Source: Candidatus Bathyarchaeota archaeon
GTDB taxonomy: Archaea; Thermoproteota; Bathyarchaeia; Bathyarchaeales; DTEX01
Length of the DNA: 34,860 bases
Assembly (NCBI GenBank): GCA_018396655.1
Contig: JAGTQF010000012.1
Coordinates: 1-34,860, forward strand
Direction: 5' to 3'
In this document: piece after piece, positions 278 through 10,789 of the stretch
How the letters are laid out: each line of letters starts with the position of its first letter
Position numbering within the stretch: position 1 is the stretch's first letter
Translations under genes and position numbers: made by a program
The notes under the pieces: generated by a model
Database searches by the model: none
Told to the model about the DNA's origin: nothing
The model's input: only the letters and a program-made list of their open reading frames with translations

Positions 278-652
278 TTATGGAACATGAGGTTTAATTA
301 CAACCCTAACCTGCCCCTCCGGGCTTATAGTGATTAAGCCTATAGGCAGATTTATGACGCCTAAGATTTTCTCTAGTCTTCTTAGATGCGGATAATCTTC
401 TGGGACCGCTATATATGTTGGAACAAATCCGTTCTCAACACAATGAACTATACATTGGCCTAAATTTCTATAGCAATCAGATAACTCAAAACCACATTTA
501 GTCATTATGCAATATGCCATTCTATACCCTATACTATACCCATCTTCAACCTCATAGACCTCAATTCTATCCTCCTCAGAGCGAATAATGCTCGTTGGGA
601 ATAACGAGGATAACCATTTGCATAAAACCTCAGAGATACCTTCATTAACCAT
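278..652 (-). CDS. Uncharacterised protein, possible degenerate nuclease-fold domain
   Basis: I do not recognise this ~124-residue protein. ATG at 652 is preferred over TTG at 679 because GGGAGAG lies seven bases upstream of the ATG. The central part holds several cysteines. The C-terminal third reads TYIAVPEDYPHLRRLEKILG, then a strand NLPIGLITISPEG. A pattern of 'surface residue, AVP, helix, then GLI-x-I-x-x-x-G' is common at the end of small archaeal restriction-endonuclease-like domains. No clear PD-(D/E)XK catalytic set is visible, so any nuclease relation is only a suggestion. No signal peptide or membrane segment is seen. An AAATTAAAAATG box A-like stretch lies near 690-702, so it probably has its own promoter. 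Confidence 0.55.
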   Translation of the reverse strand: MVNEGISEVLCKWLSSLFPTSIIRSEEDRIEVYEVEDGYSIGYRMAYCIMTKCGFELSDCYRNLGQCIVHCVENGFVPTYIAVPEDYPHLRRLEKILGVINLPIGLITISPEGQVRVVIKPHVP

Positions 653-726
653 GTTAATTCTCTCCCAGAGCAAATCCAAGGAATCTTAACATTTTTAATT
701 TATTATGAGCGCTTATATAACATTTC

Positions 727-1701
727 TTAATTTTGGGATTCTATAGTCTTGCGCGCAGAAAACAGTATTATAAGAGAGGATATGAGGATAAGTGCTGAAA
801 ATATAATTATCTGTGAGAGGATGTTGAGAGCAGATATTTCATATAAGTCGGAAATTAGCTTCGTTATGATACTTAAAGAAATAAGACTTAGACATAGGCC
901 AAATGCCAGTTTAAAGGTTGCTTCCTTTACGCGTCTGGTTGCTGAAGCGCCGATCTGCACACCAATTGAAGAGCCAATAAAAATTAAAATTGCTGATATA
1001 AAGTCAACATTTCCCTTAAATGTATGAGTTAAAGATGCGTATGCGCAGCTTATTAGTATCCCAAAAGTGCATGTTCCAGCAGCAATTGGCGGCTTACAGC
1101 CAACGACATAAATTAATAGTGGAACTAGTAGAAAGCCTCCGCCAATGCCTAAAAAACCAGCTAGTAAACCACCAATAAAACCTATTATTGCTATTACCCA
1201 TATTGATATTGGCTCCGTGTTTAATCGTGGTATTACAATTGACGGTGGAATTTTAAGCCCGCGAACTCTAAACCATAGAGACTTCTTTTTAATGTCCTTT
1301 TCTCGGCTGGAACTTAGGCTCTCTCGAATTATGCATATAGAGATTAAGGTTAAAATTAGAATGTAAATTAGGCTCACTATAAAATTCATGTGCAGAACGT
1401 TGGCCTTCTTGAGTTGTTCAATTATCTGTGCTCCAAGTTCCGTTCCAATAAGCGAGAAGAGAGCAATAATTAAGCCTATCCTTATCTCTACGTTGCCTAG
1501 GCGCTTATGCTTTAACGATGCAATAGTGGATGACATGAATATTTCAGTAACGCTTGTTCCAACAGCTATATTGGCTGGAAAACCCAAACTAATTAGGAAT
1601 GGTGTGAGAATAAAACCACCACCAAAACCGAAAAAGCCGGATAGAATACCAATAAAAAAGCCCATAGCGACCAAGCAAAGAATCGTACTTAAATTTAACA
1701 T
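727..1701 (-). CDS. TauE/SafE family membrane permease
   Basis: This is an integral membrane protein of about 324 residues, the usual TauE/SafE length. The family exports sulfite, sulfoacetate or related organic anions, and substrates vary. It shows the two-repeat structure: a first half with GFFGFGGGFILTPFLISLG followed by AVGTSVTEI, and a second half with LLAGFLGIGGGFLLVPLLIY followed by AAGTCTFGI. Hydrophobic helices fill both halves, with a charged cytoplasmic linker (ESLSSSREKDIKKKSLWF) between them. ATG at 1701 is favoured over TTG at 1719 because AGGGAAG lies just upstream. The next gene upstream on the same strand is the RHH-GcvH protein, about 90 bases away. The substrate cannot be read from sequence. 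Confidence 0.88.
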   Translation of the reverse strand: MLNLSTILCLVAMGFFIGILSGFFGFGGGFILTPFLISLGFPANIAVGTSVTEIFMSSTIASLKHKRLGNVEIRIGLIIALFSLIGTELGAQIIEQLKKANVLHMNFIVSLIYILILTLISICIIRESLSSSREKDIKKKSLWFRVRGLKIPPSIVIPRLNTEPISIWVIAIIGFIGGLLAGFLGIGGGFLLVPLLIYVVGCKPPIAAGTCTFGILISCAYASLTHTFKGNVDFISAILIFIGSSIGVQIGASATRRVKEATFKLAFGLCLSLISLSIITKLISDLYEISALNILSQIIIFSALILISSLIILFSARKTIESQN

Positions 1702-1788
1702 TAAATCTTCCCTACACAAAAGAGATTTTAATACATTTAATTAAAAATAAAGCTGAAAGAAGCGGGGATTTATATCCGTCTACCCCCT

Positions 1789-2382
1789 CTACTCGCGCAG
1801 CCTTCCCTCCAACTTACTTACCCATTTATTATATTCTCTGGCGCTCAATAAATCGTTAAGCTCCTCCTCAAGAACCACAGAGTTCTTTGGTTTAATTTCA
1901 AGTATCCAACCCTTACCATATGGATCTTCGTTTATTAAGTATGGTTCATTCTTTAGGTCCTCGTTGATCTTAACTATTTTGCCGCTGACTGGCGCATAGA
2001 TATCGAACATAAACATCCACGTTTCAACAACGCCCACTGGCTCCATTTTATTAACCTCTTTCCCAACAGGCTCAGTCATAACGTGAGCTATGCCCTTCAA
2101 GTGCCTGGCAGCGTAATCAGATAGCCCAACGCGTATGTTTCCTTCAGGAGTTATTTGGGCCCACGTGTGCTTTGGAGTGTATAATAATTGTTCTTTGACT
2201 GTTGCTAGGATTTCTCTCCTTTTCTCTGCCGGGACTCCTCTAGTGCGCATTATCTCTTCTAGGCGCAGTCTTATAGCTTCTGAGACGAACTCTGATATGC
2301 TCCTGTATTTTCCGGATTTAACAACATTTTCAACTTCTTCTATTAATTCCTGTCTTATACTTATGGTCTTCCATTTTGGCAT
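1789..2382 (-). CDS. RHH DNA-binding domain fused to a GcvH-like domain lacking the lipoyl lysine
   Basis: This 197-residue protein starts at ATG 2382, which follows a strong GGAGGTGG ribosome site; an in-frame upstream extension has none. Residues 5-45 form a ribbon-helix-helix domain (strand KTISIR, then two helices, SISEFVSEAIRLRL). Residues 66-165 align end to end with glycine-cleavage H protein: YTPKHTW, GLSDYAARHLKGI, VETWMFMFDIYAPVSGKI, NEDPYGKGWI. In GcvH the lipoylated lysine sits in ES-V-K-AASDIYAP. Here the equivalent residue is Met123, codon 2014-2016, so lipoylation at that site is impossible. A short helical tail follows. It is divergent from an AbrB-PhoU gene. I infer a DNA-binding regulator that uses a lipoyl-type fold as a sensing or interaction module, and not a glycine-cleavage carrier. 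Confidence 0.85.
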   Translation of the reverse strand: MPKWKTISIRQELIEEVENVVKSGKYRSISEFVSEAIRLRLEEIMRTRGVPAEKRREILATVKEQLLYTPKHTWAQITPEGNIRVGLSDYAARHLKGIAHVMTEPVGKEVNKMEPVGVVETWMFMFDIYAPVSGKIVKINEDLKNEPYLINEDPYGKGWILEIKPKNSVVLEEELNDLLSAREYNKWVSKLEGRLRE

Positions 2383-2490
2383 ATACTCCACCTCCTTTAT
2401 ACTTGAGTGATATATAATGCAAGCGAAAAATATATATTTGATGCAAATAAAATAGTAATTGGTAAATATCATATATTCCGGGGTGAAAAA
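2383..2490. promoter_or_regulatory. Divergent promoter region between the RHH-GcvH and AbrB-PhoU genes
   Basis: This 108-base gap separates two divergently read putative regulators. It is very AT-rich and contains ATATATATTT and TTATATATC stretches at about 2411-2440 that could serve as box A elements on either strand. Strong ribosome sites lie at both ends: CCTCCTTT on the + strand (GGAGG on the minus strand) before the RHH gene, and GGGGTG six bases before the TTG start at 2491. Both products have DNA-binding-type N-terminal domains, so auto- or cross-regulation here is plausible but not shown. Confidence 0.5.
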
Positions 2491-3567
2491 TTGGAAAGCA
2501 GAAAATTGCAGAAGGTCGGCCGCTCAACAATAACCGTTTCACTTCCAAATAAGTGGATAAAAGAAAATGGCATTAAACCCGGCGATTTAGTCTTTATTCT
2601 GCCGGAGAAGGATGGCACGCTAAGAATAGTTCCAAGCCAGTCCATGCGCCAAGAAGAGATTGAGGAGGAATATGTGATTAATGCTGATGCTTGTGATGAG
2701 CGCGGTATGCTTGAGAGAATAATTGTTGGTGGCTATATTCTTGGGCGTAACGTCATTAGGATTATATCATCGAACCGCATAGAAAAGGAGCATATAGATG
2801 AGGTACGAAGAATCATACGTAAGCTTATTGGTCTAGGCATACTTGAGGAGACGCCAAATAGTATATTATTGCAATGTTCATTAGACCCATTAAGATTTAA
2901 AATTGACATGCTAGTTAGAAGATTGACACTTGTTGTCTCAACAATGCTTTCTGAGGTTATGCAAGCCCTCTTAGAGAATGATGAGACCTTAGCTAAGGAG
3001 GCTATTGAGCGTGAGGATGAAGCTGACACAATTTATTATTTAGCTACTCGCCTCATCCTCTATGTGCAGAAAAGGCCCGATTTAGCTGAGCAGATGGGCA
3101 TAACAGATATAATCTTTATACCAGCTTTACGCTTGATACTTCAATCTTTAGAGTTGATAGGTGATTACTCTGAGGATATAGCAAAAAAGGTGCTAGCTCT
3201 CAAGATGTATAGAAGTAAAATAAGTGAGGATATGATAAAGAGGATTTATGAGCTAGGCGAGGCTGTTCAGACAGTCTTTCAGAAGGCCGTCGACTGCATA
3301 TTTACAGGCGATATTAGGCTCGCTAATAGTGTGCTTGAGATGAAAAACTCCCTTAAAAGTGAGGTTGAAAGACTAATATATGAGCTACCAGAGATACCAT
3401 ACTTAAGAGCCATAGTTTCAGGCTTAGCTAATATAGCAAATGTTGGAGGAATAAATGCCGATATAGCGATAAATAAGGCACTTCAGGAACATAGCAGGCA
3501 TATTGAGGGTGTAGTTAAAATAGTTAAACATGTCTTAATGCAGCCTAAAATATCCAAGAGAAATTGA
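2491..3567 (+). CDS. AbrB-type DNA-binding domain plus PhoU domain regulator
   Basis: This ~358-residue protein belongs to the archaeal PhoU-like regulators. The N-terminal ~45 residues are an AbrB/SpoVT swapped-hairpin domain (RKLQKVGRSTITVSLPNKWI, then KPGDLVFILPE). The C-terminal part has two helical PhoU repeats, with DETLAKEAIEREDEADTIYY and a D-Y-S-E-D-I-A segment typical of the metal-binding PhoU motif (E/D-x-x-x-D). TTG at 2491 is chosen because GGGGTG precedes it; the frame extends upstream to 2407 but that extension overlaps the divergent promoter and lacks a ribosome site. PhoU proteins modulate phosphate uptake and signalling; no pst transporter is next to it, so the regulon is unknown. 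Confidence 0.82.
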   Translation: MESRKLQKVGRSTITVSLPNKWIKENGIKPGDLVFILPEKDGTLRIVPSQSMRQEEIEEEYVINADACDERGMLERIIVGGYILGRNVIRIISSNRIEKEHIDEVRRIIRKLIGLGILEETPNSILLQCSLDPLRFKIDMLVRRLTLVVSTMLSEVMQALLENDETLAKEAIEREDEADTIYYLATRLILYVQKRPDLAEQMGITDIIFIPALRLILQSLELIGDYSEDIAKKVLALKMYRSKISEDMIKRIYELGEAVQTVFQKAVDCIFTGDIRLANSVLEMKNSLKSEVERLIYELPEIPYLRAIVSGLANIANVGGINADIAINKALQEHSRHIEGVVKIVKHVLMQPKISKRN

Positions 3568-4527: not shown

Positions 4528-5322
4528 TTGAGGTGCCAATACTGCGGTTCGGAGACCGCTCTCCCATTCAGGTGTCCCTTTTGCGGTAAATATTTCTGTG
4601 CTGAGCATAGGCTGCCAGAGCTTCATGCATGCCAAAATATTAGTAGAGTGGTAGTAAGCATTAAAGGTGGCATTACAGAGGGGCGTGAGATTAAAGGAGG
4701 GGGCTATTATCGAAAAATCTTTAGGGCAGCATTACTACATTTCAGTAAAACTGAAACTATTCATTTGGCTCTAGGCACATTAATGGTTGCTTTGGTGAGT
4801 TTATCTATTGGTGAGATTTTCTATGAGAACCCGCTTTTACTGCTATTTTTAATTATAGTCTTTGTCTTCACATTTCTGCTTCATGAGATTGGGCACAAAA
4901 TTGTTGCTGAATATTATGGTTTGTGGGCTGAGTTTAGGCTATCCCTTTTAGGCATAATCTTAACAATTATATCAATATTCCTGCCGATAGTAAAGATTGT
5001 CTCACCCGGAGCTGTTGTCATATCCGGTGAGACAGATAGAGGAATCGTCGGAAAAGTGTCCCTCTCAGGTCCGTTAATAAATATATTGCTTTCTATAATG
5101 TTTCTTATCTTAAGTCTTACAGCAAGTTATCCGCCACTTAAAATAATTTTCATGTGGGGTTTTATTGTCAACACCTTCGTAGCTCTCTCCAACCTGATTC
5201 CATTCAGTATCTTAGATGGGAGGAAAATTCTCTGGTGGAATAAATATGTTTGGGCTTTAACTTTTACAACAGCCCTTTCACTAATGGTAATTGTGCTAAT
5301 AATTTTTAGTGGTTTCTGGTAA
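4528..5322 (+). CDS. Zinc-finger site-2-type membrane metalloprotease
   Basis: The 264-residue product joins an N-terminal AN1-like zinc finger (Cys3, Cys6, Cys16, Cys19, Cys24, His27, His33, Cys35) to a polytopic membrane domain. Helices span about 75-95, 101-120, 136-158, 180-200, 205-225 and 243-262. HEIGH at 119-123 is the intramembrane HExxH zinc site, and NLIP...LDG (222-231) supplies the third ligand Asp230, as in S2P/RseP-like proteases. The start is TTG at 4528; a TTTAAG box A about 23 bases upstream suggests a leaderless or near-leaderless transcript. Family members cut membrane-spanning substrates during signalling. The substrate is unknown; the finger may recruit ubiquitin-like or other partners. 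Confidence 0.85.
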   Translation: MRCQYCGSETALPFRCPFCGKYFCAEHRLPELHACQNISRVVVSIKGGITEGREIKGGGYYRKIFRAALLHFSKTETIHLALGTLMVALVSLSIGEIFYENPLLLLFLIIVFVFTFLLHEIGHKIVAEYYGLWAEFRLSLLGIILTIISIFLPIVKIVSPGAVVISGETDRGIVGKVSLSGPLINILLSIMFLILSLTASYPPLKIIFMWGFIVNTFVALSNLIPFSILDGRKILWWNKYVWALTFTTALSLMVIVLIIFSGFW

Positions 5323-8217: not shown

Positions 8218-8592
8218 TTGGCGAATCCCGGCATAAGTAAAGTTATCGATAAGATAATTGGTAAGCGAAGGGAGAAGAAAGAAGAGATTAAAGTTGAGGA
8301 GAAAGAAGAAGCCCCCACCGTTACACTGACGTCTACCAGTAAAATCTATCTTAAAGCCTTACCTTTACATTCACCTGGGGATTTAGAGAAGATTAAGAGT
8401 GAGATTAAAGCTGGTAACATTCTGATAATTAAGATTGAACCTTCGCCTGAGAGCGATGTTGAGGACATTAAACGCGCCATCGGCGAGTTAAGCGAGTTCG
8501 CAGAGTCAATGGGCTGTGACATTGCTAGGTTAGGTGAGGAACGTATAGTTGTAACGCCCCCAACGGTTCAGATATGGAAGGAAAAGGGCTAG
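8218..8592 (+). CDS. sepF: Archaeal cell-division protein SepF
   Basis: At 124 residues this has the SepF layout. An N-terminal amphipathic helix (about 5-18, GISKVIDKIIGKRR) should bind the membrane, a charged linker follows (18-35), and residues 40-122 form the SepF core (SKIYLKALPLHSPGDLEKIK, GNILIIKIEP, AIGELSEFAESMGCDIARLG, ERIVVTPPTVQIW). Archaeal SepF is the membrane anchor of FtsZ, so the organism should carry FtsZ. The start is TTG at 8218 behind GGAGAGAGGG, about eight bases upstream. It follows the PUA gene and converges with FttA, with 13 bases between stops. Confidence 0.9.
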   Translation: MANPGISKVIDKIIGKRREKKEEIKVEEKEEAPTVTLTSTSKIYLKALPLHSPGDLEKIKSEIKAGNILIIKIEPSPESDVEDIKRAIGELSEFAESMGCDIARLGEERIVVTPPTVQIWKEKG

Positions 8593-8605
8593 AGAAACAA
8601 GATAC

Positions 8606-10522
8606 TCATCTAAGCTTAATTGTCTCTAAGATATCTGGCGCTATAGCATTAACCTTATATTTTCTACGCAGAAAATCGGCAAGGGCTAGGCACTTACTTC
8701 TCTCGCCGTGACATATAATTATGTTCTCCGGCTTAGGCGATATCCTTCGCAAATAATTTATTATCTGCCTTCTATCCGAGTGTCCAGAGAAACCTTCAAC
8801 CGTATGAACCTTTAAGCCAACCTTTATAACCCTAATTTTTCCCTCCTGGTCTACTATTGAGACTTCCTGCGCACCTTTCTGAATTCTACGGCCTAATGTT
8901 CCCTCAATCTGATAGCTGACGAATATCAGCGAGTTCCGCTCATCATGCGCCAGATTCTGGAAATAGTCTATTACTGGACCTCCTTCGAGCATGCCGGCTG
9001 TAGCCATTATTATGCATGGCTCACCCTCAATTATCTCGCTCCTCGCGCTTGGATGTTCAACAATCGTGAAATACTCGGACTCAAAGGGGTTTATGCCCTC
9101 GTTAATTATCTTGTTGCGGACTTCTCTAGAAAGATATTCTGGATAAGCCATATGTATGGCCGTTGACTCTGATATCATGCCCTCAATGAAGACCGGAGCC
9201 TCCTTAAGCTCACCACGTCTCATATACTCGTCTATAACAAGCATTATCTCCTGTGCTCTACCAACAGCTGGCACTGGAATTATTGCCTTTCCACCTCTCT
9301 CCAAGGTCTCATTGATTATTGAGACCAATTTTTTCTCCGCGTCTGCCCTTGAGGGCATAACGTCTGTTGGCGCACTATACGTGCTCTCAGTTATGATGGT
9401 CTCAACCCTCGGAAACTCTGTTGCTGAGGCTTCTAGTAGCATTGTCCTACCATACTTAAAGTCTCCAGTATAAACTATATTGTGGTATCCTTCGCCTACG
9501 TGTAGGTGCACTATTGATGAGCCAAGTATGTGCCCGGCATTATGCAGCGTCAGCCTTATGTCTGGCGCTATATCTGTCACTACACCATAGCGCAGCGGAA
9601 TAGTGTGCAATACCACCTCTCGAACATCTTTCTGGTCGTATGGTAATGGAGCGCCTTGCTTAGATAAAACATCTAAGTAGTCGAGCTGTAGTAGGGTCAT
9701 TAGGCTGAGGTTTGGAAGCGAGCAGTAGACCGGACCATCATAGCCATATTTAAAGAGGTATGGTAGGAAACCACAGTGGTCTAGGTGCGCATGGCTTATA
9801 ACAACAGCATCCAAGGATTCTATGTCGAACTGCGGCGCGTCAAGTCTTGGAAATGCTTCGAAGGGTTTTGTTGAGCCAGGGTTTATGCCACAATCTAGTA
9901 GGACTTGGCTTTCTCTCGTTTGGACTAGGATTGCCGAGCGTCCAACCTCCCTAGCTGAACCAAGCATCGTTATTCTTACGTCGCCAATCTCATATAATAA
10001 TGGACGGAATATCCTCTCGCCAACGTTACGGAGTATTCTCTCCCTTTCTTTACTGCTCGCATATAAAGAGTGCTCAATATGAGCCATTATCTTTGAGGGT
10101 TTAGGTGGGCTTCTTATTGCTCTAGGCCTCCATTTTGTTCTAAGTATTATCTCCTGAAGTGTCGCTCCATTCTTTCCTATAACGAGACCCGGCTTTTTAG
10201 CTTCTATCACAACCTCTCCTAATGGCGGGTCAAATATTATGCTTGTAATCTCGGCCTCTTTCGGCACAATCTCATATATTATCTTCTCAGCCTCTTTCTC
10301 AGGAAGCCTCACTGAGGGGTCTGAGCGCGTAACGATTCTCTTTTTTATAAGATTGACTATTTTTGTGATTATCTGCTCCTGCTCTATTAGTACCTCCGGT
10401 CTTTTTGCGTATACTGCTAATGCTGGGCCCTCGAATTCTATGCGTGTTATCTCAGCCTCTTTTGGAATATGCTCAAGTATTATTTGTCTGATTTCGGCTT
10501 TACTCTTATCGATAGATGGCAA
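8606..10522 (-). CDS. fttA: Transcription termination factor FttA (aCPSF1), KH-beta-CASP ribonuclease
   Basis: About 638 residues. FttA/aCPSF1 is the archaeal relative of CPSF73; it cuts nascent RNA at U-rich sites and ends transcription. Two KH-like domains fill the first ~145 residues (counted from TTG 10528), with the RNA-binding GKNG loop at 118-121. The metallo-beta-lactamase core has GSAREVGRSAI, SHAHLDHCG (HxHxDH at 246-251) and GHILGSS. The beta-CASP part has IPVPAVGRAQE and GMLEGGP, and the final zinc residues are in GFSGHSD and ICHGE. TTG 10522 is preferred over TTG 10528 because GAGGAG lies seven bases before the former and only one before the latter. It appears monocistronic. Confidence 0.95.
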   Translation of the reverse strand: MPSIDKSKAEIRQIILEHIPKEAEITRIEFEGPALAVYAKRPEVLIEQEQIITKIVNLIKKRIVTRSDPSVRLPEKEAEKIIYEIVPKEAEITSIIFDPPLGEVVIEAKKPGLVIGKNGATLQEIILRTKWRPRAIRSPPKPSKIMAHIEHSLYASSKERERILRNVGERIFRPLLYEIGDVRITMLGSAREVGRSAILVQTRESQVLLDCGINPGSTKPFEAFPRLDAPQFDIESLDAVVISHAHLDHCGFLPYLFKYGYDGPVYCSLPNLSLMTLLQLDYLDVLSKQGAPLPYDQKDVREVVLHTIPLRYGVVTDIAPDIRLTLHNAGHILGSSIVHLHVGEGYHNIVYTGDFKYGRTMLLEASATEFPRVETIITESTYSAPTDVMPSRADAEKKLVSIINETLERGGKAIIPVPAVGRAQEIMLVIDEYMRRGELKEAPVFIEGMISESTAIHMAYPEYLSREVRNKIINEGINPFESEYFTIVEHPSARSEIIEGEPCIIMATAGMLEGGPVIDYFQNLAHDERNSLIFVSYQIEGTLGRRIQKGAQEVSIVDQEGKIRVIKVGLKVHTVEGFSGHSDRRQIINYLRRISPKPENIIICHGERSKCLALADFLRRKYKVNAIAPDILETIKLR

Positions 10523-10789
10523 TCTCAATCTCCTCGCTTTAAGGCGAATCCTATTTATTAAAATCCTCTTAGACTTAATAATTCAGTTCTATTTATTCCC
10601 TATCACCGCGCCCTCCCATGAAATACACATTAAGGGCGCATTACTAATATTTAATGAGATAACTTGGATTTAAATTGTTCGGAAAGATATAAAAGTCGCA
10701 AGTCTTCTTTTAGGAACACTTAATTATTTTAAGCCACTTTAATCCTAGTTTAGATTGCACTCTGCCACTCATTTAAGGCTGGGTGTCTC

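Follow-up and report, generated by a model that had tools for sequence, protein, structure and literature searches.

The window analysed here is a 34,860-nucleotide stretch of a Candidatus Bathyarchaeota contig. Near its start lies a gene on the minus strand, here termed RHH-GcvH, whose 197-residue product combines a ribbon-helix-helix (RHH) DNA-binding domain with a domain resembling GcvH. The gene is a single intact open reading frame that runs from an ATG at position 2382 to a stop codon ending at 1789. An in-frame start further upstream, at 2472, would give a longer protein, yet the ATG at 2382 is preferred because a ribosome-binding site, AAAGGAGG, lies just upstream of it and because family proteins start there. 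The genes and protein domains at the locus are as follows.

278–679, minus strand: 133-aa protein encoded behind TauE in the genus; Pfam and NCBIfam give no match
727–1719, minus strand: TauE/SafE anion exporter, the next gene downstream on the same strand (PF01925, E 3e-47; genus-level association)
1792–2382, minus strand: RHH-GcvH fusion protein, 197 aa (stop codon 1789–1791)
1816–2187, minus strand: GcvH-like domain with the lipoyl carrier fold, residues 66–189 (PF01597; Foldseek match to 1onl)
2011–2019, minus strand: W122-M123-F124 at the hairpin tip, the Met123 codon (2014–2016) taking the lipoyl-lysine position (alignment and predicted structure)
2254–2367, minus strand: RHH DNA-binding domain, residues 6–43 (RHH_1 in 25 of 43 members; match to the NikR RHH)
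2491–3567, plus strand: AbrB/MazE-PhoU protein, the divergent partner gene (kept in 38 of 42 loci)

Elsewhere in the window, an AN1-type zinc finger is fused to an M50 membrane peptidase (4528–5322), and a SepF-like cell-division gene is convergent with a gene for the FttA (aCPSF1-type) transcription termination factor (8218–10528).

A GcvH fold without the lipoyl lysine

The GCV_H profile (PF01597) matches residues 66–189 with an E-value of 3e-31 and covers positions 1–120 of its 122. The RHH assignment draws on several weaker matches: residues 6–43 of the window protein score E 0.002 against RHH_1, just under the curated cut-off, 25 of 43 family members match the same profile at E ≤ 0.01 (best E 4e-6), and the RHH part of NikR is the top solved structure retrieved (E 0.003) by a profile built from residues 1–55 of the family. 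Judged by these comparisons, the family bears the RHH signature of the CopG/MetJ/Arc proteins. A preliminary description of this DNA had proposed that an RHH domain and a full-length GcvH domain are joined in one gene, with methionine at the lipoyl position and the surrounding fold residues kept, and each of these points holds. The motifs GLSDYA, DIYAPVSGKI and DPYGKGWI are all present, and alignment to solved H-proteins sets VETWMFMFDIYAP opposite VESTKSVSDLYAP, which puts Met123 at the lipoyl lysine.

Structure prediction, proposed in the same description as a check, agrees with this assignment. In a single-chain AlphaFold2 model, the GcvH domain is predicted with high confidence and W122-M123-F124 occupy the turn between strands 115–121 and 125–129. 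A Foldseek search with the model ranks H-proteins first, mostly at TM-scores of 0.91–0.94 normalised to the target (0.91 for 1onl). In the predicted model, the full-domain GcvH fold is thus present. The RHH part has low confidence (pLDDT about 40–75), which we attribute to the fact that RHH domains fold as dimers.

Relatives were drawn from 61 close genomes, all 257 class genomes examined and a 398-genome phylum sample, and 84,980 species genomes were scanned in addition. Together these gave 49 distinct full-length fusions spread over many independent metagenome-assembled genomes (MAGs). Every full-length fusion in the phylum sample falls in the window's own order, and all named records with the fusion in the large scan are Candidatus Bathyarchaeota, although that scan relied on two RHH-derived peptide patterns that distant fusions could escape. 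Viral contigs contained no match to the family, and a viral or mobile origin was rejected on this ground.

None of the 49 fusions has lysine at the lipoyl position. Fusions of the window protein's type (M-type) have the tip ETWMF, with ETWLF in a single member. A second type (W-type), encoded by a second copy directly upstream in several lineages of f6, f7 and f8, has E(S/T)WWF or a hairpin enlarged by additional residues. The residue check in all fused homologues, by which the preliminary description could have been refuted, therefore returned no lysine-bearing fusion: nearly all M-type proteins have Met and one has Leu, and the W-type has either Trp or a rebuilt hairpin. W122 is invariant in 43/43 aligned fusions. 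Overall, the tip reads TWMFxF in fusions versus S(V/I)K(A/S)VS in lone GcvHs; all lone GcvHs examined have ESVK/ESIK or DSVK, with L125 (ETWNF) as the sole exception.

M-type-specific replacements cluster at this tip, with T121, W122, M123, F124 and F126 standing where lone GcvHs have S, V, K, A and S, and the structural residues 74, 86, 91, 131, 134, 140, 147, 154 and 159 are common to both groups. Pairwise dN/dS values are 0.02–0.06 for the pairs in which they could be computed. These data argue that the lysine was not lost through decay and that the tip was replaced and then frozen. Since Trp-Met-Phe is fixed where the lipoyl lysine stood, the GcvH-like domain is no longer a lipoyl carrier at that site, as the preliminary description had also concluded. 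A decaying carrier was accordingly ruled out, the tip being a fixed new sequence on retained fold residues. The RHH part shares the reading frame of the GcvH part and is conserved and under purifying selection in relatives, so it is not a mis-joined neighbouring frame, the other refuting case named at the outset. Chance, a frameshift or misassembly can be dismissed as well, given 49 distinct fusions in one frame at such low dN/dS. The idea that the Trp/Met tip forms a copper site was also discarded, since Met is replaced by Trp, Leu or Asn in relatives.

In a midpoint-rooted tree of GcvH domains, all fusions group together (support 0.80) and the W-type proteins form a group within the tree with support 1.0. 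L125 (238–720), a GcvH-like protein close to a contig start that lacks both an RHH domain and the lysine, shares the tip Trp and was considered as a lysine-less lone ancestor of the fusions, but its position in the midpoint-rooted tree is uncertain and the fused clade has a support of only 0.80. A truncated second copy in genome G008 (L049, 4987–5373) keeps ETWMF without a complete RHH and is likely a decaying duplicate. Related RHH N-terminal domains also occur on other C-terminal domains (L046, 9261–9617; L050, 6258–7061), which suggests that the RHH part is a shuffled module.

The absence of gcvT and gcvP near the gene, reported earlier, extends further: neither GcvP (PF02347) nor GcvT (PF01571) has a match in the whole genome of the window, a 1.32 Mb MAG that is 94% complete. 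This genome encodes one LplA-type protein as well as a single stand-alone GcvH that bears the lysine. The glycine cleavage system has not been lost throughout the genus, as a genus mate (G006) has an apparent GcvT/GcvH/GcvP cluster, recognised from gene order and sequences. In the window's genome, the gene for the lone lysine-bearing GcvH overlaps one for a flavoprotein resembling CoA-disulfide reductase (L119, 4220–6009, contig C45). A related flavoprotein gene lies close to GcvH in other Bathyarchaeia (L026, L030–L032, L051, L052) and further away in L134; the two possibly form a separate lipoyl-disulfide module.

Gene neighbourhood and intergenic DNA

The divergent AbrB-PhoU gene is missing from only four loci, of which two (L058 and L071) start at a contig end and two (L047/L075) belong to the same genome. 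Downstream of RHH-GcvH, most lineages carry an operon of the order NfnB-MvhD-HdrA-MvhD-HdrC-HdrB, in which NfnB is an NfnB/GltD-like flavoprotein with ferredoxin domains and HdrA is double. Where the sequence extends far enough, the operon runs on into the hydrogenase subunits VhuG and VhuA, and many f8 loci have a second HdrA-HdrC-HdrB set on the far side of the AbrB-PhoU gene. The linkage also appears when searching from the other side: of the 31 NfnB matches in the class that score above 700 bits (the next-best group drops to 664 bits), 29 adjoin RHH-GcvH, in 27 cases directly and in two across TauE. The NfnB gene occurs without the regulator in two genomes, G217 and G109. In G109 (L139, 6100–13126), NfnB forms the C-terminal part of an 803-aa protein within an NfnB/MvhD/HdrA operon; the N-terminal part of this protein looks trimethylamine-methyltransferase-like, and a corrinoid-protein-like gene lies next to it, both names being read from the sequence.

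In the window's genus, RHH-GcvH is followed by TauE/SafE. Behind TauE, loci L039 and L040 have the same NfnB-MvhD-HdrA operon, L033, L035 and L036 have the 133-aa protein and an NAD-hydrogenase operon of NuoE, NuoF, HoxU and hydrogenase-small-subunit genes, and the remaining loci have other genes. The 133-aa protein (278–679) is linked to TauE and RHH-GcvH within the genus. Most members of the genus have lost the Hdr operon and have TauE behind the regulator, so the target operon is not constant. The Hdr-type linkage is seen in relatives and not in the window's own contig, which ends at base 1.

Several blocks in the DNA between the divergent genes are conserved.

2383–2490, no strand: divergent intergenic region common to RHH-GcvH and AbrB-PhoU, candidate promoter/operator (aligned across loci)
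2403–2417, minus strand: second conserved block TTATATATCACTCAA, a candidate operator (cross-locus alignment)
2430–2449, minus strand: conserved 20-bp block TATTTGCATCAAATATATAT, family consensus TATATGCATTAnnTATATAT (motif log-likelihood)
2460–2470, plus strand: conserved GTATTTAC-type block, reverse complement GTAAATAC, on the AbrB-PhoU side (cross-locus alignment)

The 20-bp block lies 67–73 bp upstream of the ATG in 26 non-redundant loci, three of its sites being weak, and reaches a log-likelihood of 401 versus 158–171 for shuffled sequences. It is the probable TATA/BRE promoter of RHH-GcvH, its TATATAT part fitting a TATA box. The second block, with the consensus (C/T)TATATATCA, is immediately upstream of the ribosome-binding site, and the block at 2460–2470 is the probable TATA box of AbrB-PhoU. 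All of these blocks may be only core promoter elements. In f8 loci, a poly-T stretch follows RHH-GcvH and a TATA-like element, TTAATATATT, precedes NfnB; this layout is expected of a separate regulator gene beside its target and is not proof of binding.

A putative regulator of electron-transfer operons

RHH-GcvH probably represents a metabolic gene switch of a new type. On balance, we favour the reading that it regulates the transcription of flavin/Fe-S/H2 electron-transfer operons and that its pseudo-carrier domain serves as a docking or sensing module, much as the preliminary description had suggested for this domain. The dimeric RHH domain would bind the divergent intergenic region and probably the operon promoter, and the protein would control, and probably autoregulate, flavin/iron-sulfur electron-transfer operons. 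The presumed target is NfnB-MvhD-HdrA-MvhD-HdrC-HdrB-VhuGA in most lineages, and TauE with the NAD-linked hydrogenase genes in the window's genus. The C-terminal domain, which appears to descend from the GcvH lipoyl carrier with its fold retained, would probably bind a partner protein or hydrophobic ligand through the old docking face or the hydrophobic tip. Hdr subunits, the Hdr complex itself and enzymes that normally handle lipoyl-GcvH are the candidate partners. We infer the regulation itself, the signal sensed and the direction in which partner or ligand binding would change DNA binding.

Known systems resemble the fusion in part. Compared with GcvH (PF01597; PRK01202), the fold is the same over its full length and structural residues are kept, but RHH-GcvH has Met, Trp or Leu for the lipoyl lysine, a fixed Trp before it and a fused RHH, and the glycine cleavage partners GcvT and GcvP are without a match in the window's genome. 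NikR likewise combines an N-terminal RHH with a C-terminal sensor-type domain. That domain binds nickel in NikR, whereas its counterpart in RHH-GcvH is a GcvH fold. GcvH-L of Streptococcus pyogenes (5a35) is another divergent GcvH-like fold; it is not fused to an RHH and is more distant, with 13% identity in the structural alignment.

The docking proposal draws on two further precedents. LbpA, a lipoyl protein with a GcvH-like fold, is required for Hdr-like sulfur oxidation, and all 95 LbpA proteins aligned in that study keep the lysine and serve as carriers (PMC6067878). Both families tie a GcvH-like fold genetically to Hdr-type enzymes, but RHH-GcvH lacks the strictly conserved lipoyl lysine and carries an RHH. 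In Culexarchaeia, a GcvH located in an Ehe hydrogenase/Hdr cluster has been proposed to present a lipoyl disulfide to HdrB (PMC9723716). The likeness lies in a GcvH-type gene within an archaeal Hdr and [NiFe]-hydrogenase cluster; in the parts of that study drawn on here, a DNA-binding fusion is not described.

The strongest alternative, which we regard as rather unlikely, is that the GcvH-like domain senses nothing and serves only to fix the spacing or oligomeric state in an otherwise ordinary RHH repressor. Many RHH proteins depend on C-terminal domains for assembly, and the hydrophobic tip could serve as a subunit contact, in tandem lineages between the M-type and W-type copies, whose adjacency suggests that the pairs form hetero-oligomers in some lineages. 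This account leaves unexplained, however, why a nearly complete GcvH fold was kept and why the gene is associated with Hdr/hydrogenase operons.

A role within the Hdr complex appears improbable. As a component or assembly factor, the GcvH fold would dock to HdrB/HdrC as a substrate mimic or plug, with the RHH as an oligomerisation or autoregulatory element, which would suit the tight linkage to the Hdr operon, the action of LbpA with Hdr-like enzymes in sulfur oxidisers (PMC6067878) and the GcvH in the Culexarchaeia cluster (PMC9723716). Yet f8 loci have a poly-T and a separate promoter-like element before NfnB, genomes that lack that Hdr operon still keep the gene, and selection acts on the RHH domain, which is constant. 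We strongly disfavour a toxin-antitoxin pair in which the fusion would be a type II antitoxin-like RHH protein that recruited its C-terminal domain and a neighbouring gene would encode the toxin: its RHH is weakly similar to ParD/CC2985 antitoxins and the adjoining gene has an AbrB/MazE domain, but the adjoining genes encode PhoU, TauE, Hdr and hydrogenase proteins, none toxin-like, and the family, which has no match in viral contigs, is vertically coherent inside a single order.

Returning to the regulator reading, a more specific version is speculative and in our view has a low probability: the regulator would measure the Hdr/hydrogenase system itself, Trp-Met-Phe mimicking the lipoyl arm and docking in the HdrB or lipoyl-handling enzyme site that normally takes lipoyl-GcvH, so that free or occupied enzyme sets operon transcription.

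The preliminary description knew of no regulator class of this kind. Consistent with this, the open-access full-text literature searched held no description of an RHH-GcvH, RHH-lipoyl or H-protein-like/DNA-binding fusion, which is not proof of absence. An RHH with a C-terminal sensor domain is a known kind of protein, as in NikR; the lysine-less GcvH-derived domain is new as far as found. If the regulator reading holds, RHH-GcvH would clearly exemplify how a protein that carries a cofactor can become a regulatory module. Its link to Hdr and [NiFe]-hydrogenase operons also bears on a question raised for Culexarchaeia, namely which disulfide HdrB reduces in archaea without coenzymes M and B (PMC9723716), for which a regulator with a lipoyl-carrier fold gives a concrete, testable set of candidate partners. 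Should docking to HdrB prove true, the disulfide that these Hdr complexes of non-methanogens naturally use as substrate would be lipoyl-GcvH.
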